Shown one piece after another: positions 14,823 to 54,259 of a stretch of DNA of 64,000 bases. This stretch comes from Lutibacter sp. GTDB taxonomy: Bacteria > Bacteroidota > Bacteroidia > Flavobacteriales > Flavobacteriaceae. Below the pieces are notes generated by a model, which was not told the origin of the DNA, ran no database searches, and saw only the letters and a program-made list of their open reading frames with translations. The position numbers and the translations under genes are program-made. The stretch is taken from positions 124,001 through 188,000 of the forward strand of contig NZ_JAEINV010000003.1 of the NCBI RefSeq assembly GCF_016342705.1. The letters run 5' to 3'. Positions within the stretch are counted from its first letter, which is position 1. Every line of letters begins with the position of its first letter.

Positions 14823-14858
14823 ACAAAAAGGAAAAGTTAAAAAGAATTAAAATAATAG

Positions 14859-19395: not shown

Positions 19396-21945
19396 ATGAC
19401 AGAAGAATTAGTGTTCCCGAAAATTTACACTTATAATGAGGTGTTAGAGAAAGCTTTAGCTTATTTTAATAATGATGAGTTAGCCGCCACTACTTGGATA
19501 AATAAATATGCAATGAAAAACAAAAAAGGTGATTTGCTAGAAGCTTCACCCGTTGAAATGCATACTAGAATGGCAAAGGAATTTGCAAGAATAGAAAAGA
19601 ATTATAAAGAAAGCGAAACCAATTCAGAAGGTTTATCTGAATATGGAAAAAATCGTAAATTTTTGTCGGAAACAGCAATTTTTGAATTATTCGATAAGTT
19701 TAAATATGTAATTCCTCAAGGAAGTGTCATGTCTTCTTTAGGAAATACAAATGTAATAGCTTCATTATCAAATTGTGTAGTTGTACCACCAGTTTTTGAT
19801 TCTTATGGAGGTATTTTTTACACAGATCAACAATTGGCACAATTATTTAAAAGACGTTGTGGAGTAGGAGTAGATTTATCTAATTTAAGACCAAACGGAG
19901 CGCAAGTATCAAATTCAGCTGGAACTACAACGGGAGCAGTTTCATTTATGAATCGTTTTTCAAATACAACACGTGAAGTTGCTCAAAATGGAAGAAGAGG
20001 TGCGTTAATGTTAACTATGGATATTGCACATCCAGACGTGGAAGATTTTATAACCATTAAACAAGATTTATCAAAAGTAACAGGAGCAAATATTTCATTG
20101 CGTTTGTCTGATGAGTTTATGATGGCTGTAGTAAATGATGATGATTTTACATTACGTTGGCCAATTGAAAGCAAAACTCCAACGTATAAAAAAGTAGTAA
20201 AGGCAAAAGATTTGTGGAATACAATTATTAAATGTGCCCATAATACTGCTGAGCCTGGATTAATTTTTTGGGATCGTCAACATTATTATTCAACTTCATC
20301 TATTTATCCAGGATTTAAGAATAGTTCTACAAATCCTTGTTCAGAAATTGCAATGCAAGGAGGAGATAGTTGTCGTTTAATTGCTGTTAATTTATATAGT
20401 TTTGTTGATAATCCATTTTCAGATAAAGCAACATTCGATTTTGATAAGTTTTACAAGGTAGTATATGAAACTCAACGTTTAATGGACGATTTGGTAGATT
20501 TAGAATTAGAGGCAGTTGATAAAATTTTCAACAAAATAATGCACGATAAAGAGCCAAATAATATTAAACAAGTTGAAATTGATACTTGGAAATTGTTATA
20601 CAAAACGGGTAAAAAAGGAAGAAGAACAGGTTTAGGATTTACTGCATTAGCAGATGCTATGGCTGCATTAGGTAAAAAGTTTGATACGGATGAAGCAATT
20701 GCCATGGTTGATGAAATTATGAAAACCAAGTTACGCGGGGAATTTGATAGTAGTATTGATATGGCTATCACTCGTGGGAAATTTGAAATTTTTAGCCCTG
20801 AAATTGAAAACTTCTCTGAATTTATTCAAATGGTTCAAAAAGAGTTCCCTGATTTGTATGAGAGAATGATGAAATATGGAAGAAGAAATATATCAATTAG
20901 TACCGTTGCACCAACAGGAAGTTTAAGTATGTTGGCACAAACCTCTTCAGGAATTGAACCAGTTTTCTTATTGTCGTATAAACGAAGAAGAAAAGTAAAT
21001 CAAGATGATGCAAATGCTAAAATTGCATATGTGGATGATATGGGTGATGCTTTTGAAGAATTTGAAGTGTATCATCCAAAATTAAAACAGTGGATGGAAG
21101 TTACAGGAGAAACTGATATTAAAAAAAGTCCATACGCTGGTGCAACAGCTCCAGAAATTGATTGGTTAAAAAGAATTGAAATGCAGGCATTAGTTCAAAA
21201 ATACACAACGCATTCAATTAGTTCAACAATTAATTTAGCGGCAGATGTTCCTGTAGAAAATGTGGGTGATATTTATATTGAATCTTGGAAAAAAGGACTG
21301 AAAGGAATTACTGTTTATAGAGATGGATCAAGAAGCGGAATTTTAGTAGCGAGCGATGCGAAAAAAGAGAAAAAAAACAACGAATGTTTTGCAGAAACTA
21401 TCTTTCCAAAAAGGCCAAAAAGAATTGAAGCAAAAGTAGTTCGTTTTCAAAATGATTATGATAAATGGGTGGCTGTTGTAGGTTTAATAAATAACAGACC
21501 CTATGAAATTTTTACAGGTAAGTTAGAAGATGCATTTTTATTACCTACTTGGTTAGAGCAAGGTTGGGTAATTAAAAATAAAGATGATAAAGGAGCTACT
21601 CGTTACGATTTTCAATTTGAAGATAAACAAGGTTATAAAGTTACTTTAGAAGGATTATCGCGTACATTTGATAAAGAATATTGGAATTATGCTAAATTAA
21701 TTTCTGGTGTTTTACGTCACGGAATGCCTATACAATATGTAGTAGATTTAGTAAATAATTTAAATATGTACGATGAAAATATAAATACATGGAAAAATGG
21801 TATTGCACGTACACTAAAACAATTTGTAGAAGACGGTACAGTAGCTGCAGATAAAAAATGTCCAGAATGTGGAGATCCTGAAGGGTTAATTTATGAAGAA
21901 GGTTGTTTAAAATGTAAAAATTGCGGACAAACTAAATGTGGATAA
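19396..21945 (+). CDS. nrdJ: Adenosylcobalamin-dependent (class II) ribonucleotide reductase
   Basis: An 849-residue NrdJ-type enzyme that reduces ribonucleotides to deoxyribonucleotides with B12. Visible are the first redox Cys in SNCVVVPP (about 127), GVGVDLSNLRP (about 157), the active-site NPCSE (about 313), PTGSLSMLAQTSSGIEP (about 505) and a C-terminal zinc-ribbon-like tail with CPEC and CKNCG ending in KCG, which carries the re-reducing cysteines. Length and order fit the TIGR02504 family. No cobalamin riboswitch is visible in the 170 bases upstream. The gene stands alone, closed by a strong hairpin shared with the PepSY gene. Confidence 0.95.
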   Translation: MTEELVFPKIYTYNEVLEKALAYFNNDELAATTWINKYAMKNKKGDLLEASPVEMHTRMAKEFARIEKNYKESETNSEGLSEYGKNRKFLSETAIFELFDKFKYVIPQGSVMSSLGNTNVIASLSNCVVVPPVFDSYGGIFYTDQQLAQLFKRRCGVGVDLSNLRPNGAQVSNSAGTTTGAVSFMNRFSNTTREVAQNGRRGALMLTMDIAHPDVEDFITIKQDLSKVTGANISLRLSDEFMMAVVNDDDFTLRWPIESKTPTYKKVVKAKDLWNTIIKCAHNTAEPGLIFWDRQHYYSTSSIYPGFKNSSTNPCSEIAMQGGDSCRLIAVNLYSFVDNPFSDKATFDFDKFYKVVYETQRLMDDLVDLELEAVDKIFNKIMHDKEPNNIKQVEIDTWKLLYKTGKKGRRTGLGFTALADAMAALGKKFDTDEAIAMVDEIMKTKLRGEFDSSIDMAITRGKFEIFSPEIENFSEFIQMVQKEFPDLYERMMKYGRRNISISTVAPTGSLSMLAQTSSGIEPVFLLSYKRRRKVNQDDANAKIAYVDDMGDAFEEFEVYHPKLKQWMEVTGETDIKKSPYAGATAPEIDWLKRIEMQALVQKYTTHSISSTINLAADVPVENVGDIYIESWKKGLKGITVYRDGSRSGILVASDAKKEKKNNECFAETIFPKRPKRIEAKVVRFQNDYDKWVAVVGLINNRPYEIFTGKLEDAFLLPTWLEQGWVIKNKDDKGATRYDFQFEDKQGYKVTLEGLSRTFDKEYWNYAKLISGVLRHGMPIQYVVDLVNNLNMYDENINTWKNGIARTLKQFVEDGTVAADKKCPECGDPEGLIYEEGCLKCKNCGQTKCG

Positions 21946-37868: not shown

Positions 37869-40800
37869 TTATCTGCTTAAGTACAATCTTTTTTGAATAG
37901 GTTTTTTATTGTCTTTATTAAAATATATGATGAAATAATAAATGCCTGCAGGTGCTAATTCTCCAGTTCCATTATTTTTTCCATTCCAATCACTATTTGA
38001 ACTAGTTGATGTATACACTAATGAACCCCATCTATTGTAAAACTCCACTTTAAAATTAGGGTATAATGTTCTTAAATTTTTAATAGTGAAAGTATCATTA
38101 ATACCATTTCCTGTTGGAGAAAATCCATCAAAAATTTCAATATCATAGGTTTCACACTTGTTTAAATTTACTGTTACTGCTAATGGATTTGTACTTGTAC
38201 AACCATTTTTTGTTTCAACAGCATAATAAGTTTCACCATCAATTAATGCTTCTGATAAATTTAAAAGAGTACCATTTGGAAAGTTATCATACCAAGTGAC
38301 GCTTCCATTTATTTGAGGTAGTACATTTTCGTTTAAATTTAGTAGCGTTGGGTTACTAATTTTACAAAATTCATTACCATACTCCATTAGTTGTGGTGTA
38401 CTATTTGGCGTTAAAGCAATGTTTACAACCTTTCTAGTTGAACTTTCACAACCATTTGAAGCATTCGTTTGAACTGCCCAATAATCTTCTCCATCAACTA
38501 ATAATTCATTCATTTCTAGCGGTGAAATAGAAGTTTCTGTTGCATACCATATAATTTGATTTCCACTAACTTCTAAATGTGCAATTGTAGGTAAATCAGC
38601 AGCGCAAAATGTTTGATTGGTGTTTACTATTATAGCTTCTTCTACATCGGTTAAAGTAACTGTAATTTTTGTTCTTTCTATACTTTCACAATTTACAACG
38701 GTATTTATTTGTGCAGCCCAGTATTCTTTACCATTAACTAAAATCGTTGTACTATTTAAAGGAATAGTAGCTGTTTCTGAATCAAACCAAATGGCATTTT
38801 CATTTACTTGTAAATTGGCAATAGTTGGTTTATCAGCTTTACAAAACTGTTGATTTATATTTATAGTTGTTGGTTTTTGAAGATTTAAAATATGAGCTTT
38901 CACCATTAATCTATTCTTACTTATACAACCTGTGGTTATATTGGTTTGTGTTGCCCAGTAATCTTCCCCATCAATCAATAAATCTGTTGTGTTTAACGGA
39001 GTTGTTGAAAGTTCGGTATCATACCATTGAATGTTTGTACCATTGGCTATTAAATTTGCTATGGTTGCAGCATTATTAATGCAAAAAGATTGATTTTCTT
39101 GCAAAGTAGTAGGAGCTTGTGTTGAATTAATGGTTACGTTAACTTTAATTCTTTTTGCACTTTCACAACCGTTTGTTGTATTTGTAGCCCAATAAGCGGA
39201 TCCATTTATTAAAAACTCGCTATTAGATAGTGCAATAATTGACGTTTCTGAACTATACCATTTTATAATATTTCCATTGATATTTAAATTTGATATAGTT
39301 GGATTGTCAATTTCACAAAATGATTGATTTACACTTGCCGTTGTAGGGGGGGTTACAACATTAATAATGACAGTTATAACAGTTGTTACGCTATTTTCAC
39401 AACCAGTTGAAGTATCAATATTAGTGGACCAATAATCTTCTCCATTTATTAAAATATCATTTGGATTTAAAGCAACTGTTGAATTTTCTGAAGCATACCA
39501 AACTGTATTTTTAGGACTTAAACTCGCAATTGTAGGTTTTTCAATTTCACAATAAGTTTCAATTTTTTCTAGTTTTATTGGAGGAATTTTAGCATTTATT
39601 GAAACAGTTATTGGCAATCTTGAAACACTTTCACATCCTGTAATATTATCTGATTGTGTTGCCCAATAAGTTTTTCCATTTTCTAATATATCCGAACTAT
39701 TTAATGGAATTGTTGAACTTTCTGAAACATACCACTTTATGTTTTCTCCAGTAGCTTGTAAATTAAATATGGTAGCGTTTTCATCAATACAAAAAGCTTG
39801 GTTTGATTTTTCTGTTGTTGGAGCTTGTAAATTTAAGATAGAAATAGTCACTTGATAAAGTGTAATTCCTTCACAATTTGAAGTTGTATTTGAAATTTTC
39901 GCCCAATAAGTTTGTCCGTTTATTAAAAGCTCATCACTAGCTATTGGAGTTTCAAAACTATTGTTGGAATACCATTGTAGATTGTTTTCTACAGCATTTA
40001 AATTAAAAACTGTGGCATTTTCATCTATACAAAATTGCAGATTTTTAATAATTGTATTTACAGGTAGTGTTTCAGTTAGAGTTACATTTACAACTATTCT
40101 AGAAGTACTTTCACAGTTTGTTAAGGCATCTTTTTGGGCCGCCCAATAAGCATACCCATCTATTAATAATTCCGAAGGGCTTAAAGGAATATTAGATATT
40201 TCTGAAGCATACCAAACAATATTAGAATCATTAACAAATAAATTTGAAACAGTAGGATTGTCTAATTTGCAAAAAATTTGATTCGTTTCTGTTAAAGTTG
40301 GTGGAGGAACTGAAATGATAGTAACATTTACAACAACTCTGCTAGCACTTTCACAACCATTTTGTTCTTTTTGAGCTGCCCAATAAGTTAAACCGTCAAT
40401 TAATAATTCACTTGGGTCTAAAGGAGTTGTAGAAGTTTCAGAACTATACCATTGAAGGTTATTTCCATTGGCTGATAAATTTAGAACAGTTGGATTATCA
40501 ACTTCACAAAAAGTTTGATTTGTTTCTGTTATAGTTGGTGGAGGAACTGAAATAATACTAACATTCACTGCTATCCTAGTGGCACTTTCACAATTTGTTA
40601 GAGCGTCCTTTTGAGTTGCCCAATAAGTTGCCCCGTCAATTAATAATTCAGAGGAGTTTAATGGAGCAGTAGCAGTTTCAGAAGCATACCATTCAATTGT
40701 ATTTCCATTTGCAGCAAGATTTGCAACGGTTGGTTTATCTACTTCACAAAAAGTTTGATTTGTTATTGAAATTTCTGGAGGTGGAACGTTTTTAATTGTT

Positions 40801-42539
40801 ACAGTTACAATGACTCTAGAGATACTTTCACAACCACTTGGTGAATTTTTATTTGAAGCCCAATAAGAAAGGCCATCAATTAATAACACTGTTGAGTCAA
40901 GTGGCGTAGTAGCAGTTTCAGAATCATACCATTCAATATCAGTTCCATTTGCAGTAAGGTTAGCAACACTTGGCGCATCAATTTCACAAAAAGTTTGATT
41001 GGTTTCAGAAACAGTTGGCGGTTGTACAGAAATAATTGTAACATTTACAGCAACTCTATTTGCACTTTCACATGTATTGTTTGTATTTGTTTGAGAAGCC
41101 CAATATGTTGAACCGTTAATTAACAATTCAGTAGGATCTATGGCAGCGGTATCAGTTTCAGAAGCATACCATTTAATACCGGTTCCATTTGCAGAAAGGT
41201 TTGCAATGGTTGGTGTATCAATTTCGCAAAAAGTTTGATTGGTTTCAGAAACAGTTGGCGGTTGTACAGAAATAATTGTAACAGTTACCATAACTCTAGT
41301 CACACTTTCGCAATTGGTTTGAGGATCTTTTTGTGCGGCCCAATAATCCTCACCGTCCATTAACAATTCAGTGGAGTCTAAAGGAGATGTAGAAGTTTCA
41401 GAACTATACCATTGTATGTTATTTCCACTTACAGATAAATTTGATATGGTGGGTTTATCAATTTCACAAAAGGTTTGAATTGTTTGATTGGTAGTTGGAG
41501 GAAGTGTTTTTTGTATGGTAACTGTAATATTTGCAGCGGCATCCGGGCAAATATTTAAAGTGCTTGAAACGGTATATGTGTAAACACCTTCAATATTAAT
41601 TCCAGGCTCAAAAGCACCTAAATATCCACCACTTAAATTACTCGGCCCAGACCAACTTCCAGAAATATCAGGGGATCCGCCTAATAAATTAAATAAATCA
41701 GTTTTTACAGCGTCTTTTTCACACACATTAAAATTATTACTTGTTCCAGCATTTGGAGTTGTATCAATAAATACAGTTGTACTTACTCTTTCAGTACTTT
41801 CACAAGGAAACGAATTTTGTGATGCCCAATATTGTTTATTGTTTTCTAAAGGAACGTTAGGGTCTAGTGGAATTTCTGAGTTTTCACTATCGTACCAGCT
41901 AATATTTATCCCTGTTGCACTTAAATTACCTACCGTTGGGGTTGGTGGTGAGCAAAAAGATTGTATTGGAGCAACAATAGGTGGTTGAGGATCTACAACT
42001 GTCACAGTTGTTGGTAAACGGTTAGAAGTACAGCCATTTTCAGTTTGTTGCACCCAATATGTTTGTCCATTTGTTAAAGGTAAATTACTAGGAAGTAAAT
42101 TCCCTCCAAATTGAGCACTATACCATTGAATATTACTACCAGTGGCAGATAATGTTGCAATTGTTGGATTATCACTTTTACATTTTCCAACAAATATATC
42201 TACACCAGAAGGATAGTTTCCATAAATAGCAACTGTAATAGCTAAACGAGGAGTACTACAACTTCCTCCCGAAATATCATCAGCATAATAGGTTTTTCCA
42301 TTTAAAAGTAATGATGTTGGGTTTAGTTGATTACCACCAGTTGCACTGTCAAACCAAGCAATAGAGGTTGCTTGCACAACTAAATCTGAAATTTTTTTAT
42401 TATCATTTTTACAAAATGATTGAGACGTAGCACCTGTGGGTGTCTGATTTGTACATTGTGAAAAAGATTCTTGAGTAACAGCAAAAAAAAGTACCAGATA
42501 AACTATTGATAGTAGTACTGAAAATTTCCCCTTTTTCAT
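37869..42539 (-). CDS. Giant repetitive surface protein with T9SS type B sorting domain (CHU_C)
   Basis: A 1556-residue secreted protein. A signal peptide (about 1-28, AVTQESFSQC) is followed by 17 Ig-like CHU_C-associated repeats of about 75-80 residues, each with FC..d.PTi.nL, WY.SE, L.LL.dG..YWA.Q and CES. One different domain (about 275-345, SGSWSGPSNLSGG) interrupts after repeat 3. The C-terminus (about 1465-1556) is the gliding-motility-associated type B signal: DGFSPTGNGINDTF, VEFYNRWGSLVY, GKNNGTGELAPAG and a final LYLSR. It would be exported through T9SS and displayed or released, perhaps as an adhesin. One conserved Cys pair per repeat suggests disulfides. Confidence 0.93.
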   Translation of the reverse strand: MKKGKFSVLLSIVYLVLFFAVTQESFSQCTNQTPTGATSQSFCKNDNKKISDLVVQATSIAWFDSATGGNQLNPTSLLLNGKTYYADDISGGSCSTPRLAITVAIYGNYPSGVDIFVGKCKSDNPTIATLSATGSNIQWYSAQFGGNLLPSNLPLTNGQTYWVQQTENGCTSNRLPTTVTVVDPQPPIVAPIQSFCSPPTPTVGNLSATGINISWYDSENSEIPLDPNVPLENNKQYWASQNSFPCESTERVSTTVFIDTTPNAGTSNNFNVCEKDAVKTDLFNLLGGSPDISGSWSGPSNLSGGYLGAFEPGINIEGVYTYTVSSTLNICPDAAANITVTIQKTLPPTTNQTIQTFCEIDKPTISNLSVSGNNIQWYSSETSTSPLDSTELLMDGEDYWAAQKDPQTNCESVTRVMVTVTIISVQPPTVSETNQTFCEIDTPTIANLSANGTGIKWYASETDTAAIDPTELLINGSTYWASQTNTNNTCESANRVAVNVTIISVQPPTVSETNQTFCEIDAPSVANLTANGTDIEWYDSETATTPLDSTVLLIDGLSYWASNKNSPSGCESISRVIVTVTIKNVPPPEISITNQTFCEVDKPTVANLAANGNTIEWYASETATAPLNSSELLIDGATYWATQKDALTNCESATRIAVNVSIISVPPPTITETNQTFCEVDNPTVLNLSANGNNLQWYSSETSTTPLDPSELLIDGLTYWAAQKEQNGCESASRVVVNVTIISVPPPTLTETNQIFCKLDNPTVSNLFVNDSNIVWYASEISNIPLSPSELLIDGYAYWAAQKDALTNCESTSRIVVNVTLTETLPVNTIIKNLQFCIDENATVFNLNAVENNLQWYSNNSFETPIASDELLINGQTYWAKISNTTSNCEGITLYQVTISILNLQAPTTEKSNQAFCIDENATIFNLQATGENIKWYVSESSTIPLNSSDILENGKTYWATQSDNITGCESVSRLPITVSINAKIPPIKLEKIETYCEIEKPTIASLSPKNTVWYASENSTVALNPNDILINGEDYWSTNIDTSTGCENSVTTVITVIINVVTPPTTASVNQSFCEIDNPTISNLNINGNIIKWYSSETSIIALSNSEFLINGSAYWATNTTNGCESAKRIKVNVTINSTQAPTTLQENQSFCINNAATIANLIANGTNIQWYDTELSTTPLNTTDLLIDGEDYWATQTNITTGCISKNRLMVKAHILNLQKPTTININQQFCKADKPTIANLQVNENAIWFDSETATIPLNSTTILVNGKEYWAAQINTVVNCESIERTKITVTLTDVEEAIIVNTNQTFCAADLPTIAHLEVSGNQIIWYATETSISPLEMNELLVDGEDYWAVQTNASNGCESSTRKVVNIALTPNSTPQLMEYGNEFCKISNPTLLNLNENVLPQINGSVTWYDNFPNGTLLNLSEALIDGETYYAVETKNGCTSTNPLAVTVNLNKCETYDIEIFDGFSPTGNGINDTFTIKNLRTLYPNFKVEFYNRWGSLVYTSTSSNSDWNGKNNGTGELAPAGIYYFIIYFNKDNKKPIQKRLYLSR
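38180..42420 (-). repeat. Tandem coding repeats (about 17 units of 225-245 bp)
   Basis: The Ig-like units are also visible in DNA. The 60-base blocks at 40981-41040 and 41221-41280, exactly 240 bp apart, differ at one base. Units between 40200 and 41460 are most alike, while those at the ends have diverged, suggesting recent expansion in the middle. Confidence 0.85.
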
Positions 42540-44132: not shown

Positions 44133-44549
44133 TTATTCCATTTTTTTTGTAATATACATTAATCCAATCCCTATTACAAAGGAAATGGCGATGTTCCAAA
44201 TTGTTTTTTCACCATTAAAACTTGAATTTAATTGAGGAATTGCTGGTAGAAACTTAACTGTTATAAAACTATTTCCATTGTTTTTTAAAAACACAGGACT
44301 TCCTATTTGTTGTCCAGTTCCAGTATAAACTTTGCCTTTGTATTCAAATTCATAGCCAAATAAATACGTATATTGGTTTCTAATGGTTTCATTTCGTTCA
44401 CCATATTCTTGTCTATAACTTGTTATTTTGGCTTTTGTTTCTGTTCCAAATAAGGTTAAACTCCCTAAAAAAAGTCCGTAAATAGTAAATAAAAAACCTA
44501 TTGAAAAAATCAACCATTTACCAAAATTATTTTGTTTAATACAGTTCAT
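44133..44549 (-). CDS. DUF3592 family membrane protein
   Basis: A 138-residue protein with a hydrophobic helix at about 12-33 and another at about 118-134. Between them is a beta-rich segment with YEFEYKGKVYTGTG and NSFITVKFLP, the usual core of DUF3592. The family has no settled function. It is convergent with mpl and divergent from the large membrane-anchored gene, and its core resembles the middle of the last zinc-ribbon protein of that cluster (about residues 83-145), a link that may be chance. Confidence 0.7.
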   Translation of the reverse strand: MNCIKQNNFGKWLIFSIGFLFTIYGLFLGSLTLFGTETKAKITSYRQEYGERNETIRNQYTYLFGYEFEYKGKVYTGTGQQIGSPVFLKNNGNSFITVKFLPAIPQLNSSFNGEKTIWNIAISFVIGIGLMYITKKME

Positions 44550-44691: not shown

Positions 44692-47600
44692 ATGGTTATG
44701 AAAAGTTTTTGTTCTTATTTATTGTTTTTTTTCTTTTCATTAATAATATATTCTCAATCAGATCAAGGTTTTTATCAAGATGAATGGACATATTTACCCT
44801 CGGACACAGAAATTAACAATGCACTAAACGCCACGTATGGTTTAACTCAAGGATGTGTGGCTGGTACAGCAAAAATTGACACTGATCTTGAATTATCTAA
44901 AATTCTTAAATATCATAATAAGAAATTAGCTGGACAATATGAACCTTCAAGAATATCATTTGTAAAAATATATGTATATTATCCATATATAGTTGGAAAT
45001 AAAATACAAAGATATCATTTGGTTCAGGATCATGAAACAGGAAAGTTTGCTTTTAGATATAGTTTTTGTGCAGATTGCCCAACTACTCTTTTGGAAACTT
45101 ATGATGAAGAATATAATTTTATTAAAAATTCAGATGATTTCGCTTTTGGTTTTGCTCCTCCAATGGGTTCATCATCATCAACTTCAACTAATTCGGGAAC
45201 CGATATAGATGGCATTGTTTCAACTGAAGGAGAAGAAAGTGAAATTCCTTGGGAACTTGTTATTGGAGGTTCAATTGCTGCGGCTGTAGCTGCAATAATT
45301 AGAAAAATATTAAAAAAAACAGCTACTTCTAAAACAACAAAACCCAATAAAAATAAAAAGGAGAAAAAAGAGGACGAAGAGGATGCCAATTACATTTTAC
45401 AACTGAATAAAAACAGCTTTCAATTAAAGTTAAACGAACCAGAAAATTTAGATATTCAAATTTGGAAAGTTACATCAAAAGGTGAAAAAAGATGTTCTGC
45501 GATCATACAAATTCAAAACTTTGAAAAAGCACTAAAAATAACTCCAACAACGGGTGTAAATAGTTTACAAGCACAATTACTACTTGAAAAGCAACCCAAA
45601 GAAACGAGTTTTACTATTTTGGTAAACGCTAATGCTGAAGGTCATGAATTTCAAAAAGAGGTTAGTATTCAGCCTTTTGGTGAACTACAAATTGTAATAG
45701 AAACGCTACCGGATAACAAAAGAACTTTACGGCCAGATACATATCAAACCATTGCTTGTTATGCGCAAGTTGTAGATGAAAACGGTAAATGTATAGCCGA
45801 TTTAACAGAAAAAATTCAGTTTGTACCAAAAAGTGATTGGTTAGATTTATCAACAAGTATCATTGAAAATAGTAAAAAAGGCCTCAATATAGGATGTACA
45901 AATCCAAATCCAAATGCTTCAATTCCAAACCCTCCAAAATCTGTAATTGTTAAAATTATAATGGATGATGTTGCAGAAGGAGTAGAACCTTTGCAGACAG
46001 AATTAGAAATTGCATTAATAGATTGTAAACTAGAAGTAGAAATTACGGAATGCTCGTTTCCTGTAATTGATGATTTAAGTGAAGTGACCTTTGATGCTTA
46101 TATAGAAAATCCTGATGGAGAGAAAGATTGGAATTTTAATGGAGAATACCGCAAAGGAATTGACCTAGATGAACCACTTACAGAAATTAGTATTAGTAGA
46201 AAATCTGAAACAGAAGTTAGTATTACACTTACTGGTCCTATTTTAAAACCTGGTGATGATGAAACGTTTTTGAATAAAACGTTGGTTATTTTTGCCGCAC
46301 AAGGTGAAGAAAAACCATTGGAAAGACACATAAGCGTTACCGTTTCGCAAGTTGGATTATTTGTAAAACATGGAGTGGAAGGTAAAAATGAATTGATGTT
46401 TACAGCTGATAAGCCTTTTGAATCTAATTTAGATTTTGCCCTTTATAAATTTGATAAAAATACCAATCAAATCATAGTAGATAAAGATGGTTTAGACAAT
46501 AAATTGACATTTGAATTGCAAAACGAGGATCAGGAAAGTATCAATTTTGTAAGTGTTTTGCAACCAACTTTTAAATATGACACATTGGTTTCTAACATAC
46601 CATATGGCCGTTATATATTTAAAACACAAGAAGATATTCCTGGTTTTGGTGATATTAGAACATTGAATTATTTAGTAAAGGCACCATTTGGAATGGATGA
46701 CAATCCGGAAGTTTTTGAACAAGTATTAAAAGTAAGAGTCCGAACTTTTGGTATTGGAAAAGAATTCCCCGAATGGGTTGAAGCTTATGAACAATGTAAA
46801 ACCATCATCAATAAATATGTTCCTGCTGGCGAATCACGAAATAAACTAAATGATATATTAGAAAAACGGAAATATACTTTAGGTGCTGAAGGCTTAACCA
46901 AATTAAGAAATAATATTTGGGAAATTGCCCAAAATTTAATATTAGCTGAAGGAGCAGAAGGTTATAAAAATATGGAGGTTTGGGCAAATCGAATAACCGT
47001 AACACTTGAGTGGACAGAATGGGCTGGAGATTTGGCTTTTAATGCATTAATGGCATATTATTTAAAAGGAGCTGGAGCAACAGTAACTGGATTGTCTAAA
47101 GGAATTATAATTGAAGCTTTGAATTTTTACATTTATGAAAATGATAAAGGTTGGGATGCTTTTGCAGATAGACAATATGAAAAAATAATTCCATTATTAA
47201 TGAATGTTGCCAAAGGAAGGATTATAAGCATCGAAAACATTGAACTGGTTGTCAAAAAGAATAAAGTTTTAGCCTGGACTATTTTCATCAGTTGTGAATT
47301 TTTATACAATTTGTATCAAACAAAGTCTGTTGTGGAAGCAGCTAAATTAACAGCAGCTCAAATGCGAGATGAATTAATTATGCGTAAAATAACCGCTCAA
47401 TTACAAAAAAACGCATTAAAATATAATGTGAAATTCACATCACCTGATGAAGTTTTAGATGATTTGGTGAAAAGTGTGAAAACCGTAAATGGCGAAGAAA
47501 TTATAGATCCAAAAAAATTATTGGAATTTATGCGAGATCCTGCAGCAGTGAGAACCATAAAAAAACACGGAACGGAATGGATGAAACAGGTTTTTGAAAA

Positions 47601-48405
47601 ATCACGTGATAAAATTTATCAAAAACACGATGCTGATCTTAAAAAATATATTTCTGAAACCTACAAAATTGACCCAAATGATATAAAAATAGATGATTTC
47701 AGAACACCTGGAACAGGAGGAAAAACCAATCTTAATACCGATAGAGATTATAGGGTATTACGAAAAGTGAAAACTGAAAGTGGCGATGTTTGGATAGAAG
47801 TTCAAAGTCCAAATTGGAAACAAAAATCGTATGAAATTTTTGGAGAAACCACAGGTAAACCTTTTGGAGTGGATGCACTAGAATGGGCTGAAAGGCATCA
47901 ACAACGAGGAACAGATAGATTTGATGCTGAAGCCTGTAAAGATTATGCCGATAACACATACAATCCAAGCACAGGTGAAGTCAATAGAAATAAACCTAAT
48001 ATTTTACAAGTAAAAGAAGGCAAAGGCCGTTTGATTGACTCCGAAGAATTGGGTAATATGTATAAAAATAAAGTGAATAATGCACTAGATCCAGGAATGG
48101 AACCCGAAGCTTATGCGCAAGCACAAAAAGGAGTGAAAACGTTAAAAGAGGTTCGAGATGGTTATGGAGTTCAAGGTCTGGATGTTCCTGAAATTCCAGA
48201 TAGGTTAAAAAAAGCAATGGATATTGTTGAAAAAGCTCACATAGATGCTAGCGCTACACCGGAACATTTAAAAATGCTCAACGAACAGCTTAAAGATTTA
48301 AAATATGAAAATGTAGGGGATGTAGCTAAAGATATGGCTGAGAGTTTTAAAGATTTGAAAAAACACGACTCAAATGATCCTAGACAGGTAATTTTTGGTT
48401 GGTAA
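44692..48405 (+). CDS. Large membrane-anchored protein of unknown function, first gene of the zinc-ribbon cluster
   Basis: A 1237-residue protein I do not recognise. A signal peptide (about 1-23, SLIIYSQ) leads an extracytoplasmic N-domain (about 24-170, with paired Cys in SFCADCPT). A single helix (about 190-205, WELVIGGSIAAAVAAII) is followed by a K/E-rich stretch (206-235). Then come several beta domains (about 236-680) with repeated LEI.L.DC-type strands, a helical hydrophobic zone (about 780-900), and a C-terminal domain (about 985-1237) with GTGGKTNLNTDRDYRVLRK and WIEVQSPNWKQK. Charge around the helix suggests the large C-part faces the cytoplasm. The C-terminus looks like a separate module, possibly enzymatic or toxin-like, but no catalytic set is certain. 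Confidence 0.7.
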   Translation: MVMKSFCSYLLFFFFSLIIYSQSDQGFYQDEWTYLPSDTEINNALNATYGLTQGCVAGTAKIDTDLELSKILKYHNKKLAGQYEPSRISFVKIYVYYPYIVGNKIQRYHLVQDHETGKFAFRYSFCADCPTTLLETYDEEYNFIKNSDDFAFGFAPPMGSSSSTSTNSGTDIDGIVSTEGEESEIPWELVIGGSIAAAVAAIIRKILKKTATSKTTKPNKNKKEKKEDEEDANYILQLNKNSFQLKLNEPENLDIQIWKVTSKGEKRCSAIIQIQNFEKALKITPTTGVNSLQAQLLLEKQPKETSFTILVNANAEGHEFQKEVSIQPFGELQIVIETLPDNKRTLRPDTYQTIACYAQVVDENGKCIADLTEKIQFVPKSDWLDLSTSIIENSKKGLNIGCTNPNPNASIPNPPKSVIVKIIMDDVAEGVEPLQTELEIALIDCKLEVEITECSFPVIDDLSEVTFDAYIENPDGEKDWNFNGEYRKGIDLDEPLTEISISRKSETEVSITLTGPILKPGDDETFLNKTLVIFAAQGEEKPLERHISVTVSQVGLFVKHGVEGKNELMFTADKPFESNLDFALYKFDKNTNQIIVDKDGLDNKLTFELQNEDQESINFVSVLQPTFKYDTLVSNIPYGRYIFKTQEDIPGFGDIRTLNYLVKAPFGMDDNPEVFEQVLKVRVRTFGIGKEFPEWVEAYEQCKTIINKYVPAGESRNKLNDILEKRKYTLGAEGLTKLRNNIWEIAQNLILAEGAEGYKNMEVWANRITVTLEWTEWAGDLAFNALMAYYLKGAGATVTGLSKGIIIEALNFYIYENDKGWDAFADRQYEKIIPLLMNVAKGRIISIENIELVVKKNKVLAWTIFISCEFLYNLYQTKSVVEAAKLTAAQMRDELIMRKITAQLQKNALKYNVKFTSPDEVLDDLVKSVKTVNGEEIIDPKKLLEFMRDPAAVRTIKKHGTEWMKQVFEKSRDKIYQKHDADLKKYISETYKIDPNDIKIDDFRTPGTGGKTNLNTDRDYRVLRKVKTESGDVWIEVQSPNWKQKSYEIFGETTGKPFGVDALEWAERHQQRGTDRFDAEACKDYADNTYNPSTGEVNRNKPNILQVKEGKGRLIDSEELGNMYKNKVNNALDPGMEPEAYAQAQKGVKTLKEVRDGYGVQGLDVPEIPDRLKKAMDIVEKAHIDASATPEHLKMLNEQLKDLKYENVGDVAKDMAESFKDLKKHDSNDPRQVIFGW

Positions 48406-48447
48406 TACTAATAAGAATGTTGTATAATTTATAAATCTTAATTAAAG

Positions 48448-49062
48448 ATGTCCTATTGCTCAAATTGTGGAATAAATAATCCTTTGGAAGCTAAATTTTG
48501 CCCTTCTTGCGGTACTAAAATAGGTATTGAAGCTTCAAAAAAACACCTTTCGTCCTACAAAGAAAAGATGTACAAAAATACAATTATAGGCCTAAAAAAT
48601 GAAGGTAAAAAAATTGTAGAAAACAAAGCCAAAGAAGTATTTAATTCCGCACTGTCAAAAAGTAAAAATATTTCAGAAGAAAGCCAAAGTATTTCTGAAG
48701 TTTTTAAGGCAACAAAAACTTTTAATAATGAAGTAGAAGAGCCAAATTCATCAACAAAAAAAATAAATAAATGGACTTGGATATATATAATCATCACTGT
48801 TTTATTATTGTATTTTGGAAATCAATCTGAAGAAGTTATAGGAGTTTTAATTTTTTCTATATTAATTCTAGGTATTGTTTTTTTTAGAAGAAAAAAAGAA
48901 AAACCATATAATTGGTTGGTTAAAATTATTATAGGTGTTCAACTCATTTTTTTAGTTGCATTGGTTGCAGATAGATTAGAAAATTTTTCAGCTATTACAA
49001 TTTTATTTATAGGATTATTAATTACTAATATAATGTTATTATTAAAAGGAAATAATTCATAA
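48448..49062 (+). CDS. Zinc-ribbon protein with four membrane helices
   Basis: A 204-residue protein. The N-terminus is a zinc ribbon with Cys 4, 7, 18 and 21 (YCSNCG and FCPSCG). A charged linker follows (about 25-105), then four helices at about 109-126, 130-147, 156-173 and 180-200. The N-terminal ribbon should be cytoplasmic. No enzymatic motif is visible. It lies 42 bases after the large membrane-anchored gene and 5 bases before the metallopeptidase gene, so co-transcription is likely. Such ribbons usually bind protein or nucleic acid; which one here is unknown. Confidence 0.75.
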   Translation: MSYCSNCGINNPLEAKFCPSCGTKIGIEASKKHLSSYKEKMYKNTIIGLKNEGKKIVENKAKEVFNSALSKSKNISEESQSISEVFKATKTFNNEVEEPNSSTKKINKWTWIYIIITVLLLYFGNQSEEVIGVLIFSILILGIVFFRRKKEKPYNWLVKIIIGVQLIFLVALVADRLENFSAITILFIGLLITNIMLLLKGNNS

Positions 49063-49067
49063 AAGTT

Positions 49068-52000
49068 ATGTCAGTATATTGTCAAAATTGCGGAGTTAAA
49101 ATTATTGAAGGAGCTAGTTTTTGTGGAACATGTGGCATAAAAGTAACTTCAATTAAAACAGATAATAATGTTTGTTTTAACTGTGGATGTTTTGTGAAAA
49201 AGGATGATAAATATTGTCCAGAATGTGGAGAAATCCTAAGTAATTTAAATAAACAAACAGAATTCAAAATAAAGGAAATAAATGAACCAACAGAGAATAT
49301 TTATAAGCAAGTTGTTGAAAGTACCGTAAATAAACCAATATATACTAAAAAAAATAACAAGCCAGGTTGTTTTAAAAAACTATTTAAAACATTTTTATGG
49401 ATTGTTGGTTTTTTGTTTGTTGGTTTAATAGTTCTTTATTTTATTGGAGATGCAGAAGAAAACCCAATTGTAGATAAAACAAGAAATAAAGTTGGGTTAG
49501 AACAAACTATTTCAGATGAAGAAATGAAATTACCTTTAATGAAAGTACGTAATGCTAATCTTGTTATTACTGAAACTATTAGGTATACTATTTCCCCGAG
49601 TAGTAAATTTCAACAAATCAATTACGGTAATAAAATAAAAGTTAGTATTCCTGCAAGTTTTAATAGTTTTGAGCAATCACTTGCAATTAGTAAAGCTGCT
49701 GTTAATAAAGCTATAATGGTTGAAGATCGTAAACCATTATTTTTAGTTGATCTTACACTAGATAATGGTAAGCAACCAAATAAACCGGTTCAATTATCAT
49801 ATAAATTTGATGCAAATGAATTAAATCCAAATTTAACTATTGAAGAGCAATTAGACGCTTTTCGCTGGGATGAAGAAGGTGGTGGATGGGTGAGTTTACC
49901 TATACATATTGATTATGAAAATAATATTGTTTCTGCATATGTAGATCACTTTTCTCCTATAGGTTTTTTTTCCACTGTAATTGATACAGTAATAAAAGCT
50001 AATGATAAAATAAATGAAAAAATTGATGAACTTGATGAGCGTATATGGAACAATATGTATATTACTCCAGAAGGAAATTTTAGAATTTACTATTCAAAAA
50101 GTACTATAGATAATAGTCTTCATTTTAATAATAAAACTTGGAAACATAATTTTACAAGATCAAACTATTCCTATAATAAAGCGTATCCAAATTACATTCA
50201 AGATATGGGTTATTTCTTGGAGACTAGTTTAAAAAGGTATGTTGAAGCTGGCTTTTCAAATCCAGCATCTGATAAGGAAATGTTTAATAGTACTTATAAA
50301 AAACCTATTACGGTTAAATTAGACTCTTATTATTCTAAAGTTTCTAGTTTTGAAAATCCTCTTTCTAATAACTCGCAAGGTTTACCAAGTTACGAAAAGA
50401 TTTACGAAAGAATACATATTCCATCGTTTGAGACTTCAGATTACAAAAGAGCACAAATTGTGCTTGCTCATGAGCTATTTCATAGAATGCAAGCGCAGTA
50501 TTACGGTGTTTTAGGAATGGCTAGGCCAGCTAATAATTGGTTTATTGAAGCAACAGCTGAATACGCAGCTTATGAAATTGCTTGGCCAAGTCAAAAAGAT
50601 AAAATGTCGAATTTTACAGGAAGTGATTATCTTAAATATTCAATAAATTCCTCAGGCAGTAAAAAAGGACTTGGAGGTAAAGGTTGGACAGACCAAGGAT
50701 ATGAATACAAAACATCCATTTGGATTAAATATTTAGTAGCATCGGGTGTTAAACTTAAAGATCTAATTGAATATGATGCTGCAGATTATTATAAACCACT
50801 TTACAGTCAGCAAAAATTCTTATGGAATACTTTAAAGAATAATATGGGGGATATATATCGCAAATTTTCTATTGATATGTTTTTTTCAAAGAAAAGCCCA
50901 TTAAGTAAATTTGATTTTAGTCTTGACCTTGCAACCAATTTTTACAACTGGGATATTGAAAAAATCAAAGAAAAATCTCAAGAGTTTACTATGGGAAATA
51001 AGTTTAGTGCACAAATGGGTGTAGTAAAAGTTAATATTAAAAACCAACAATCTAAATTAGTGCTCATAACTTTAGAAGAAAAAGAAGTAATAGGACAAAC
51101 TGTTGATATAGTTATTATAAATGAAGCTACAAAAAAAACAACTACTATTGGAACGCTATTTAAAAAAGAAGATAAAAAACTTATTTCAGTAAATAATGGT
51201 GATCTTATTAGTTTAGTTCTATGCAATAGCGATTATGGAGGCGGTACAACCAAAGTAACAGTTAAAGATGTAAGCCCTCAGTTAATAATTACACCTTCAG
51301 AATTGCTTGATGCTGTTAGCAATAAAGCCTATAGTTTTGAAATATCAGCAAAAGATATTATTGATGTTATTGAAAAAGTAGATATTGAGTGGGATTTTAG
51401 CGATAACACTGAAAAAAGTACAGGTTTTCAAAATAGTATTATACCAAGTTCAGGTGAAGTAAAAATTAAAGTTGCACATACCTATGAAGAAAGCGATAAA
51501 GAACAAACCTATCCTTTAAAAGTAATTTTAAGAGAAAGCAGTACAAAAAAAGTTTTAGCAATGGCTGAAGCAAATATACTGTTAAAGTTACCTAAACCTA
51601 CCGTTTTTATTACAACACGGCATCTTATTGGTCCTCCAGGAGCAACATTTGATGTAACTGCTAAAGCATCACCAACAGACACTTACAACTTCAAATGGTA
51701 TATTCAAGGTATGAGTAATTCATATACGTATCAAGGAGAAGAATCTACTTTTACACCGGTTGCTAAAAAATTAGGTAAGTATAATGTAAACGTTAAACTT
51801 TATAATTTAAAAAATGAATTTTTAAGTGAAGATAATGTGACTATTTATGTGGAAGAAGATGAAAAAACAAAAGAATTGACAGATATTGACGGTGGTAAAG
51901 TAAAGAAAGTTATATATCGCTGTGATACAAATTATTATGGTTGCAATGTAAGTCCTTCTGGCGAGGTAATGTTTGAAAACTCTGTAAAAGAAATGGAAAA

Positions 52001-52154
52001 GGTAATTAATGATTTTATAAAACAAGGCCGCACTGAAGATGCTGAAAAAGCAAGTAAAAACTTAGCAAAAATGAAAGCTGATTTCCAATTAGAAAAAGAT
52101 ACAACATCTTGTAATTGTCAAAGAAAACGAACCCCGACAATAATTTATGAATAG
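49068..52154 (+). CDS. Double zinc-ribbon, membrane-anchored HExxH metallopeptidase
   Basis: A 1028-residue protein. Two zinc ribbons open it (Cys 5, 8, 19, 22; then VCFNCG and YCPECG, about 35-53). A K-rich stretch precedes one helix (about 107-127, FLWIVGFLFVGLIVLYFIG), so the rest should lie outside the inner membrane. A beta domain (about 150-310) leads to a peptidase-like domain: HELFH at His468-His472, followed by WFIEATAEY, where Glu494 would be the third zinc ligand, a gluzincin-like layout. PKD/Ig-like domains follow (about 745-940), then a Cys-bearing tail (TTSCNCQRK). No known family comes to mind for the whole protein. Confidence 0.75.
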   Translation: MSVYCQNCGVKIIEGASFCGTCGIKVTSIKTDNNVCFNCGCFVKKDDKYCPECGEILSNLNKQTEFKIKEINEPTENIYKQVVESTVNKPIYTKKNNKPGCFKKLFKTFLWIVGFLFVGLIVLYFIGDAEENPIVDKTRNKVGLEQTISDEEMKLPLMKVRNANLVITETIRYTISPSSKFQQINYGNKIKVSIPASFNSFEQSLAISKAAVNKAIMVEDRKPLFLVDLTLDNGKQPNKPVQLSYKFDANELNPNLTIEEQLDAFRWDEEGGGWVSLPIHIDYENNIVSAYVDHFSPIGFFSTVIDTVIKANDKINEKIDELDERIWNNMYITPEGNFRIYYSKSTIDNSLHFNNKTWKHNFTRSNYSYNKAYPNYIQDMGYFLETSLKRYVEAGFSNPASDKEMFNSTYKKPITVKLDSYYSKVSSFENPLSNNSQGLPSYEKIYERIHIPSFETSDYKRAQIVLAHELFHRMQAQYYGVLGMARPANNWFIEATAEYAAYEIAWPSQKDKMSNFTGSDYLKYSINSSGSKKGLGGKGWTDQGYEYKTSIWIKYLVASGVKLKDLIEYDAADYYKPLYSQQKFLWNTLKNNMGDIYRKFSIDMFFSKKSPLSKFDFSLDLATNFYNWDIEKIKEKSQEFTMGNKFSAQMGVVKVNIKNQQSKLVLITLEEKEVIGQTVDIVIINEATKKTTTIGTLFKKEDKKLISVNNGDLISLVLCNSDYGGGTTKVTVKDVSPQLIITPSELLDAVSNKAYSFEISAKDIIDVIEKVDIEWDFSDNTEKSTGFQNSIIPSSGEVKIKVAHTYEESDKEQTYPLKVILRESSTKKVLAMAEANILLKLPKPTVFITTRHLIGPPGATFDVTAKASPTDTYNFKWYIQGMSNSYTYQGEESTFTPVAKKLGKYNVNVKLYNLKNEFLSEDNVTIYVEEDEKTKELTDIDGGKVKKVIYRCDTNYYGCNVSPSGEVMFENSVKEMEKVINDFIKQGRTEDAEKASKNLAKMKADFQLEKDTTSCNCQRKRTPTIIYE

Positions 52155-52257
52155 GTGCGCTTATCCAAAATTTTGTATTTGCATAAGAAAAAGTTACACA
52201 GAAGAAGAAATGGATAAATATAGAAAAACCATCCGCAAAACAATTAGAAATATTTAA
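52147..52257 (+). CDS. Possible 36-residue Cys-containing small protein
   Basis: ATG at 52147 overlaps the metallopeptidase stop by 8 bases and the frame ends with TAA at 52257, three bases before the next ATG. The product begins MNRCAYPKFCICIRKSY and ends in a basic helix-like stretch, with Cys at 4, 10 and 12. It fills almost exactly the only larger gap in an otherwise packed operon, which favours a real gene, but the length is too short to be sure. Confidence 0.4.
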   Translation: MNRCAYPKFCICIRKSYTEEEMDKYRKTIRKTIRNI

Positions 52258-52260
52258 ATT

Positions 52261-52806
52261 ATGAAATACTGTTCAAATTGCAATACTGAGTTAAAGGAAG
52301 AAACAAAATTTTGTACAAAATGTGGAATTTCATTAATTGATAATCACACAAATAATAATGATATTAACCTAGTTGAAGAAAGTTTAAACCAACCAAATAA
52401 AGGCAAAAGATTTTCTATTGCACTCTTAGTAATGGTAGTTTTAGCAATATTGTTTTTTATTGGAAAATTTTTTATGGAAGATATTGTGCCTTCAGAACAA
52501 CCATTTTCTATTGAGGAACAATTGTCAAAAATTGAAGGTGAATGGCACGATCCTACTGGTGTTATTTTAGGGAATAATGATGCGATTATTGAATTCAATA
52601 AAAAAGGAGATGTAGTGATTGGAAAAGATGAAAATAATTTGTTTTCCGCTAAAATAACCCCTTTTGGCGCTAATAATTATCAGGCAATAGTGACGTTGAG
52701 AGGTGTAGAAGGAGATTTTGAATTGCATTTTTATGAAGAAGAAAACAAATTGGTGTTTTTTAGCACTTTAACAAAAAGTAGTTGGTATTTAAAAAAGAAT
52801 AATTAA
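52261..52806 (+). CDS. Zinc-ribbon, single-helix protein with lipocalin-like C-domain
   Basis: A 181-residue protein. Zinc ribbon with Cys 4, 7, 18 and 21 (YCSNCN, FCTKCG), a linker, one helix (about 51-70, IALLVMVVLAILFFIG) and a beta-rich C-domain (about 85-181) starting IEGEWHDPTG with alternating strands such as IIEFNKKGDVVIG. The G-x-W near the domain start and the strand pattern resemble lipocalin-like domains, which bind small hydrophobic ligands; this is a weak likeness. By charge the ribbon is inside and the beta domain outside. It is packed between the peptidase region and another zinc-ribbon gene. Confidence 0.7.
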   Translation: MKYCSNCNTELKEETKFCTKCGISLIDNHTNNNDINLVEESLNQPNKGKRFSIALLVMVVLAILFFIGKFFMEDIVPSEQPFSIEEQLSKIEGEWHDPTGVILGNNDAIIEFNKKGDVVIGKDENNLFSAKITPFGANNYQAIVTLRGVEGDFELHFYEEENKLVFFSTLTKSSWYLKKNN

Positions 52807-52817
52807 AACTAAATGAT

Positions 52818-53711
52818 ATGAAATTTTGTACTAATTGTGGCGAAGAATTAAATGAAGGAGCTAAGTTTTGCACAAATTGTGGTGTTAAAATTATGGATGG
52901 AAATTTTAAAGATGAAACCTCAGAGGAAAAGAAGCAAAAACCTACCTCAGAGCTTCCAAACGATTTGACTTCAAATGCATTAAAACAAATAAATAATGTC
53001 ATTTCACTTAAAAATAATCAAACAAGTATTGTAAAAAAATCAATGTACTCAGCGTTATTTTTTGGGTTAGTCATATTAATTGCCATCATGAATTTTGATA
53101 CAATGCCAATTCATCCTGCAATTGCTTTTCTATCATTTTTCTTTTTATTATCGTCTTTGGTAATTGGTTTTATATTTAGAAGTCGTGAAACAAAATTACA
53201 ATCGTTAATATCAGGTGAAAATTTAATAGCCGCTTGGACCTTAACAGATAGTGAAAAGCGTAATTACGTAGATTTCTTGTATAATAATGAAAAAGCTAAA
53301 AATAAGGGTTTGCTTATTGTTATTTCGGTTTTGGCAATTGTAATTTTTGGAATATTTATTTTGGTAATAGAAGAAGGTAAGTTATTTATGTTTTTAACCC
53401 TAATAGGATTACTAGCTTTTGTTTCCTTTTTTGCTTTTGGAATGCCCTACTATTATAAAAATCAAAATTTAAAAAACGATGGTAAAATTTTAATAGGAAA
53501 GAATTTTGCCTATATCAATGGGTTTTTTCATAATTGGGATTTTCCCCTTTCAGGAATTAAAAAAGCTAAGATTATAAAAGAGCCGTTTTATGGTTTATAT
53601 ATAAAGTATTATTACACAGATAGAACATTTACAAATACAGAAGAATTGAATATCCCTGCTTCAGAATGGGTTGATTTATCGCCATTGCTAGCAGTATTAA
53701 ATAAAGAGTAA
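52818..53711 (+). CDS. Zinc-ribbon protein with two helix pairs and a C-terminal beta domain
   Basis: A 297-residue protein. Zinc ribbon with Cys 4, 7, 18 and 21 (FCTNCG twice). Helix pairs lie at about 75-120 and 163-215. The C-terminal part (about 220-297) is beta-rich (ILIGKNFAYINGFFHNWDF, then YGLYIKYYYTD) and resembles a PH-like or DUF-type cytoplasmic domain. An even number of helices puts both ends in the cytoplasm. It is spaced 11 bases from the previous gene and 17 from the next. Confidence 0.7.
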   Translation: MKFCTNCGEELNEGAKFCTNCGVKIMDGNFKDETSEEKKQKPTSELPNDLTSNALKQINNVISLKNNQTSIVKKSMYSALFFGLVILIAIMNFDTMPIHPAIAFLSFFFLLSSLVIGFIFRSRETKLQSLISGENLIAAWTLTDSEKRNYVDFLYNNEKAKNKGLLIVISVLAIVIFGIFILVIEEGKLFMFLTLIGLLAFVSFFAFGMPYYYKNQNLKNDGKILIGKNFAYINGFFHNWDFPLSGIKKAKIIKEPFYGLYIKYYYTDRTFTNTEELNIPASEWVDLSPLLAVLNKE

Positions 53712-53728
53712 CTTAAACAAAATATAAG

Positions 53729-54259
53729 ATGGCTTATTCACTAAAAATTCACGATCCTAGATTTGACAAGTATTTAAAAAATACGAAAGATTATAGATAC
53801 CAGTTTGGTTTTGCTTTGGCAATTATAGCCATTGTAGGTTTTTATTTATATGGAGAAATGAGTGATGAAATGGACAATCCAGAAGCACTTCATATAGGAT
53901 TAGGAATTGGTGGAATGTTTTTTTTAATTGGAGTTTATGCTGCGCTTTCCGTTAAAAAAACACCAACTTGGGATGGAGAAGTAGTAGAAAAAGAAATTAT
54001 TGAAAAAGAAAAAAGCACAGATTTTGTTGTGTATATAGAAGATCAAGAACATCAAAAACATGAAATTAGATCAGAGAATGATGCAACTTTGTATAATTAT
54101 TATAAAATAGGGGAGAAGGTTCGTTATCATGGAAAATTAAGATCTTATGAGAAATTTGATAAATCAAAAGATGACATTATTTTTTGCAATGCTTGTGCTT
54201 TTATGCACGAGATTGATGAACACATTTGTAGAAATTGCGGATGCCCATTGTTAAAATAA
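53729..54259 (+). CDS. Two-helix membrane protein with C-terminal zinc ribbon
   Basis: A 176-residue protein. Helices at about 23-42 and 54-73, then a beta domain (about 83-145) with WDGEVVEKEI and VYIEDQEHQKHEIRSEND, and YKIGEKVRYHGK, reminiscent of DUF3592-like domains. A zinc ribbon closes the protein (CNAC and CRNCGC, about 152-173). It is the only member of the set whose ribbon is at the C-terminus; with two helices the ribbon would again be cytoplasmic. It is the last gene of the run, convergent with trkH. Confidence 0.75.
   Translation: MAYSLKIHDPRFDKYLKNTKDYRYQFGFALAIIAIVGFYLYGEMSDEMDNPEALHIGLGIGGMFFLIGVYAALSVKKTPTWDGEVVEKEIIEKEKSTDFVVYIEDQEHQKHEIRSENDATLYNYYKIGEKVRYHGKLRSYEKFDKSKDDIIFCNACAFMHEIDEHICRNCGCPLLK

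Follow-up and report, generated by a model that had tools for sequence, protein, structure and literature searches.

In a 64,000-nucleotide stretch of a Lutibacter sp. genome (contig NZ_JAEINV010000003.1 of RefSeq assembly GCF_016342705.1, positions 124,001 to 188,000; hereafter the window), we analysed an operon of six open reading frames (ORFs), ORF1 to ORF6, the first encoding a 1237-residue protein with one membrane helix and the other five encoding zinc-ribbon membrane proteins. The operon belongs to an accessory island that is present between mpl and trkH in some genomes of the genus and missing in others, and comparisons of trees, rates and profiles show that ORF1 has undergone exchange at both of its ends, that is, in an outer domain (ectodomain) and in a C-terminal domain (tip) separated by a conserved trunk. 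We give about even chances to the reading that the operon is mobile and diversifying, couples a membrane receptor to an effector, and most likely serves in conflict (defence or competition). An earlier note on this DNA had described six same-strand genes with small gaps, and the ORF listing of the window confirmed them on the plus strand at 44692..54259 (Table 1), with intergenic gaps of 42, 5, 106, 11 and 17 bases from ORF1 to ORF6. No terminator-like sites were found in these gaps, and no Bacteroidota promoter box was found 5' of ORF1 or in the gap before ORF4.

The exchange of the outer domain is reflected in the disagreement of two trees. The ectodomain tree grouped the window with genome G771, and G035 with G011, whereas the trunk tree grouped G035 with G771, and the window with G001, G003, G017 and G023 (G numbers denote genomes, and L numbers the loci read). 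The approximately unbiased (AU) test rejected the grouping of the other region in all four cases: for the ectodomain, p-AU was 1.4e-73 with G035+G771 enforced and 0.023 with the window plus the G001 group; for the trunk, it was 1.7e-4 with window+G771 and 9.0e-5 with G035+G011. Nonsynonymous divergence (dN) between the window and G001, G003 and G023 was 0.47-0.51 in the ectodomain and 0.06-0.07 in the tip, and the corresponding values were 0.69 and 0.36 for G035, and 0.82 and 0.55 for G011. For G771 the order was reversed (0.31 in the ectodomain, 0.41 in the tip), as expected if both share the ectodomain type. The genes around the island had a different history. In G035, the nearest genome by trkH, mpl, trkH, trkA and radC were 92-98% identical to those of the window and ORF1 was 59% identical, while in G001 these values were 80-89% and 77%; ORF2, ORF4, ORF5 and ORF6 displayed 69-91% identity to those of G035, falling to 50-78% in G001. 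The simplest inference is that the trunk and tip of ORF1 came from a different lineage than the neighbour genes.

At the other end of the protein, 11 ORF1 genes had a readable C-terminus, and eight of them (including the window's) carried a tip of type A and three (G012, G022 and G681) a tip of type B, with no kinship detectable by profile comparison between the two. In the first part of the trunk, identity to the window was 45% for G011 (type A) and 43% for G022 (type B), and in the helical part it was 53% and 38%, respectively. In all three type-B loci the next gene encodes a protein of 305-310 aa with a ribbon at its C-terminus, and these proteins form a single family. A 361-aa protein, unrelated to them but also ribbon-tailed, followed the diverged type-A gene of G011. 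The type-B partner had no match in 247 class genomes, in a search run without a positive control, and none in plasmids.

Relatives of tip B appeared in four Streptomyces plasmid records with more than 80% of the tip length covered (best E 4e-23), and one of them sits within a 10,491-aa protein. The Anthrax_toxA family (PF03497) scored 15.8 and 16.0 bits in two of the three B tips and 11.4 bits in a Streptomyces copy; since all these scores are below the curated cut-off of 25, we neither place tip B in that family nor claim an activity for it. The very long ORFs with tip B relatives were read in L097 (a Streptomyces chartreusis plasmid) and L099, and one is annotated as a 'lonely Cys domain-containing protein'. 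No paper using this name was found in the literature searched, which was judged mostly from titles and abstract starts and did not extend to subscription papers or preprints.

Tip A was found in no plasmid, one weak Rhizobium match aside (E 0.5), and among 247 phylum genomes it was found in its own genome alone. One stretch of the window tip recurrently matched release factor 1 in PDB (E 0.0026 and 0.0067), and in a comparison with the release-factor profile it reached p 4e-5 over 25 columns, a better result than for any of 150 column shuffles or any of 10 other alignments. The Pfam RF-1 family (PF00472) gave E 0.13 for the window tip and no match for the G035 and G011 tips, and all Pfam and NCBIfam release-factor matches came from the window tip, not from those of G035, G011 or G771. 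Because the family match is not significant, the GGQ is absent, and the likeness is short and was picked after the search, we do not assign tip A to PF00472 and regard a release-factor origin as a lead only. A nucleotidyltransferase reading of tip A, prompted by its motifs, was considered as well.

The charges flanking the helix of ORF1 suggest how these parts are arranged. The net charge is -6 before the helix and +6 after it, and the outer domain, some 160 residues long, is followed by the helix (about residue 189) and by a strongly basic, Lys-rich stretch. On this basis, residues roughly 208-1237 (about 1,030 of 1,237) are predicted to be cytoplasmic, and ORF1 would therefore not be an outer anchor. 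The description of ORF1 as an anchor in the earlier note was thus incomplete, since charge places most of the protein in the cytoplasm and both its ectodomain and its C-terminal domain are exchanged. Neither ORF1 as a whole nor its trunk and tips gave a match above a curated cut-off or anything credible in Pfam, NCBIfam, PADLOC and PHROGs (the last two have no such cut-off), and there was a sub-threshold CarbopepD_reg_2 match in the trunk of the L035 copy. ORF1 had no match in phage or plasmid collections, and trunk and tip A were absent among the candidates in viral contigs.

ORF1 was present in nine of the 80 relatives searched, its own genome included, and all nine belonged to the genus, which contributed 38 genomes; a tenth genome (G014) carried a fragment of ORF5 plus ORF6 at a contig edge. 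Beyond the genus, ORF1 was found in two further genera within the family, represented by G771 and G681. Across 299 family genomes, the ORF5 profile and the trunk profile each matched exactly G000, G017, G681 and G771. The trunk matches in G771 and G681 are not independent, because both genomes, found through ORF5, were already rows of the profile. What is informative is that ORF1 turned up in both genomes detected by ORF5, and that neither gene occurred alone in any other of these genomes. The trunk search of 295 class genomes returned its own genome and one match of 65 positions (G335, E 5.7e-4; the 18 kb read there contained no ribbon ORF), and that of 296 phylum genomes its own plus one match of 74 positions (G495, E 7.9e-4).

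To survey the island, trkH was used as a marker; it matched 33 of the 38 genus genomes, and 30 loci were examined. At 15 of these, mpl and trkH are neighbours in tail-to-tail orientation with no ribbon gene present; at these empty sites the aligned ends lay within 24 bases in 12 cases and 116, 181 and 199 bases apart in the other three. Six loci had the ribbon genes ORF5/ORF6 beside trkH, and eight had neither mpl nor ribbon genes in the stretch examined. One of the 15 empty sites is that of G017, which carries the operon elsewhere, and the operon of G012 also lies elsewhere. In the one remaining locus, that of G033, a perfect 14-residue relic of the ORF6 end was observed between mpl and trkH (L075:800-841), with no operon there, which suggests past loss. 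In the single-contig genome G012, the ORF1 copy (L034:7044-10618) is split by a stop codon and is followed by ORF2 and ORF5 relatives.

The order ORF1-ORF2-(ORF4)-ORF5-ORF6, with a divergent gene for a 138-aa protein upstream, recurred in L030, L031, L032, L037 and L058. The earlier note listed the six ORFs without this divergent gene, which we count in the island because its relatives adjoin ORF1 in these five loci, L058 being from another genus; its product had no Pfam or NCBIfam match. An additional gene followed ORF1 in L033, L034 and L035, with ORF4 and ORF6 missing in L034 and only a relic of ORF6 retained in L035. In L036 the order was ORF1-ORF2-ORF5, and genes resembling ORF6 and the 138-aa gene lay on a different contig of the same genome. 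In G681, G033 and G031, further ribbon genes stood beside ORF2 or ORF5 relatives, and they include ribbon-AIM24 (a Pfam match for the G033 copy), double-ribbon-helix and large signal-peptide proteins. A second ribbon-gene module that combines with ORF2/ORF5 relatives was noticed in L038:5337-12646, L039 and L059:1-5252. It comprises double ribbon-helix proteins, ribbon-AIM24 and large signal-peptide proteins; one of the last has a sub-cut-off likeness to the LIC20035 adhesin model, and no kinship was seen between the signal-peptide proteins of this module and ORF1.

The Cys4 ribbon pattern occurred in six of 39 window ORFs (a 40th, overlapping ORF was excluded), namely ORF2 to ORF6 and the ORF at 19396-21945. 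ORF2, ORF3, ORF4 and ORF5 passed the Pfam Zn_Ribbon_1 cut-off; the C-terminal ribbon of ORF6 fell below it, its cysteines being conserved, and ORF6 is strongly conserved (dN/dS 0.05-0.10). The zinc ribbon claimed by the earlier note for each of these five proteins is therefore present, and its placing of the ribbons in the cytoplasm and of several C-domains outside agrees with the charges, which predict outer C-domains for ORF3 and ORF4. The labels 'lipocalin-like', 'PH-like' and 'DUF3592-like' had no profile match in Pfam or NCBIfam. As to the peptidase, ORF3 (two ribbons, one helix) does carry an HELFH motif, and the NCBIfam model of the MXAN_6640 family putative metalloprotease (NF045524) matched the HExxH region of both ORF3 and its L058 homolog, but at 34.6 and 30.2 bits, far from the cut-off of 140, and with ribbons and a helix in addition. 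This homolog in L058 (G771), which lies at the operon end with 42% identity and a weak PKD_4 match, was the only full-length one. In Bacillota, covered here through the plasmid collection, a relative of ORF3 residues 1-296 alone was found, in one record. This record (L098:12007-14652, Acetoanaerobium noterae) encodes an 881-aa ribbon-helix protein that matches those first 296 residues and differs at the C-terminus; the post-helix domain that it has in common with ORF3 may be ZU5-like.

In the receptor-effector reading, ORF1 would sense something outside the inner membrane through its exchangeable ectodomain and would relay the signal, through one helix and the conserved cytoplasmic trunk, to the exchangeable C-terminal domain, a putative effector acting inside the producing cell. 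ORF2 to ORF6 would be its membrane partners, and their common cytoplasmic ribbons suggest a docking tag that would hold the complex together. The outer metallopeptidase-like domain of ORF3 may process the signal and, in type B, the next gene, also ribbon-bearing, is probably the regulator or antidote of the tip. Exchange of an outer and an inner domain with a conserved trunk between them, presence and absence among relatives, relics and a type-B partner that goes with the tip form the pattern of a conflict system. The conserved gene order, the co-occurrence of ORF1 and ORF5 and the lack of a match to a named system all support the proposal in the earlier note that these genes form a single membrane-linked module sharing a cytoplasmic ribbon.

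Several observations weigh against this reading. ORF3 is absent from the eight other Lutibacter operons read; because it is missing in these and present in that of G771, we consider it an optional member. ORF4 is absent in G012, G017, G023 and G771. Relatives of ORF5 (G033) and ORF2 (G031) occur in genomes where ORF1 was not found, so that the independent occurrence that the earlier note had named as telling against a single complex is partly borne out, while elsewhere the gene order is conserved. The exchange analysis comprised nine sequences and the AU tests eight rows, with G022 left out, and the groups for these tests were picked after a first FastTree run. Unlike that of a typical arms-race toxin, the tip is much more strongly conserved than the ectodomain in the comparison with G001, G003 and G023. 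The other seven of the eight type-A loci have no extra gene 3' of ORF1, so that the window's own tip has no apparent antidote. Finally, PADLOC yielded one weak match, to the ribbon part of ORF2 (E 0.023), and none for ORF1 or ORF3 to ORF6 at E up to 1, so that no known anti-phage system was identified.

We consider it unlikely that ORF1 is instead an exported polymorphic toxin whose tip is delivered to neighbours and whose next gene confers immunity. In its favour, two tip types stand behind a related trunk, the next gene changes with the tip (in all three type-B loci, and with the 361-aa gene in G011), and tip B has relatives in very long Streptomyces proteins and its sub-cut-off likeness to PF03497. 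The polymorphic toxin systems of Zhang et al. 2012 (PMC3482391) likewise have alternative C-terminal domains behind a related stem and, as in type B, a neighbouring partner gene that accompanies the tip. They differ from ORF1 in that its tip is predicted to be cytoplasmic, no secretion or trafficking domain was found in Pfam, NCBIfam, PADLOC or PHROGs, and an immunity candidate is absent in seven of eight type-A loci. It is the predicted topology, with the helix and strongly basic stretch acting as a stop-transfer signal by charge, that makes an exported toxin less likely. In addition, the tip has diverged much more slowly than the ectodomain in comparisons with three of six relatives, somewhat more slowly with two and faster with one.

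An envelope module unrelated to conflict, serving for example repair, antibiotic tolerance or signalling, is equally doubtful. The ribbon-helix protein TcaA has an N-terminal ribbon, one helix and an outer domain. ORF4 has the same layout, but only its first 70 residues match the TcaA model (NF053815), at 24.4 bits against a cut-off of 550, and it is not assigned to that family. The metallopeptidase-like outer domain of ORF3 and the strong conservation of ORF6 would also suit such a role. Yet the patchy presence of ORF1 (9 of 38 genus genomes), together with the relic of loss and its apparent replacement from another lineage, makes a housekeeping role less likely, and exchange at both ends of ORF1 would be unexpected there. 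Very unlikely, in our opinion, is a loose genomic island in which unrelated membrane genes were gathered by recombination at a permissive site and have no joint function. The differing gene histories, the ORF2/ORF5 relatives found alongside other ribbon genes without ORF1, and the ORF1 copy of G012 split by a stop codon are what it would explain. It does not account for the recurrence of much of this gene order in G012, G017 and G771, where it sits elsewhere in the genome, for ORF1-partner-ORF2 recurring in G681 (on a contig too short to place), for ORF1 and ORF5 matching the same four of 299 family genomes, or for dN/dS values below 0.51 wherever they were computable, synonymous sites being near saturation.

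Returning to the receptor-effector reading, profile searches in Pfam, NCBIfam, PADLOC and PHROGs gave no name to the set, which the earlier note had likewise matched to no named secretion, defence or stress system, and no recognisable description of the gene set was found in the literature searched, within the limits given above. One of the closest comparisons is System 4 (EACC1-caspase) of Kaur et al. 2020 (PMC7159879), which is prevalent in actinobacteria and pairs a small EACC1 partner with a constant domain of caspase-like or cyclase type; its alternative C-terminal domains are read there as effectors, and membrane sensing is proposed. Both are membrane-linked and combine a constant part with alternative C-terminal domains, many of them in System 4, but the window operon differs in its long trunk, its exchanged ectodomain and its set of ribbon-tagged membrane proteins. 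No caspase-like or cyclase match was found in the window proteins with Pfam and NCBIfam, and we do not assign the operon to System 4. The Skillet-2 Lipocone pair (PMC12419801) also has a single-helix cytoplasmic zinc-ribbon protein encoded beside a membrane protein; the gene set differs, and the same two libraries gave no Lipocone or VanZ match in the window proteins. We think it quite improbable, though worth stating, that the operon represents a new category of immune system, in which a single-pass receptor swaps its outer recognition and inner effector domains independently and belongs to a membrane complex that bears ribbon tags and includes an outer protease, and in which one effector may descend from a release-factor domain that lost its catalytic triplet. 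A bacterial receptor with sensing and acting domains both exchanged would, if true, provide a clear model for innate immunity of a modular kind or for kin recognition, and the conserved trunk, tip-partner pairs and empty sites within one genus make the system directly testable.

Table 1. Features of the operon and its divergent neighbour, in window coordinates (TM, transmembrane).
Feature	Coordinates	Strand	Basis
138-aa protein, two helices, divergent from ORF1, island member	44133..44549	-	ORF and relatives beside ORF1
ORF1, 1237 aa: signal peptide, ectodomain, one TM helix, large cytoplasmic part (predicted), exchangeable C-terminal domain	44692..48405	+	
ORF1 ectodomain, residues 24-183, lineage-exchanged	44761..45240	+	dN and tree comparison
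ORF1 TM helix and Lys-rich cytoplasmic linker, residues 185-228	45244..45375	+	flanking charge
ORF1 conserved cytoplasmic trunk: putatively beta-rich 229-690, putatively helical 691-912	45376..47427	+	
ORF1 tip type A, residues 913-1237, numerous invariant polar residues	47428..48402	+	
Type-A stretch akin to release factor 1 GGQ-loop region, without GGQ	47662..47739	+	
ORF2, 204 aa: zinc ribbon at N-terminus, about four TM helices	48448..49062	+	Pfam, charge
ORF3, 1028 aa: two ribbons, TM, outer HELFH metallopeptidase-like domain, further C-terminal region	49068..52154	+	
HELFH motif of ORF3, residues 468-472, retained in L058 homolog	50469..50483	+	
ORF4, 181 aa: ribbon, TM, outer domain	52261..52806	+	
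ORF5, 297 aa: ribbon, TM hairpins, conserved C-domain	52818..53711	+	
ORF6, 176 aa: two TM helices, ribbon at C-terminus	53729..54259	+	

Elsewhere in the same genome, a protein of 417 aa bearing several Cys4 ribbons at its C-terminal end (L040:9140-10393) is encoded beside several uncharacterised same-strand ORFs, and it may be of the SPFH/virion-core type. The window also carries, at 37869-42539 on the minus strand, a gene for what looks, by eye, like a 1556-aa secreted protein with many repeats of about 80-90 residues and a gliding/secretion-type C-terminus. Within the window, the only hit to reach the Rfam gathering score was a tmRNA gene (RF00023, 160.7 bits) at 14856-15249 on the minus strand.

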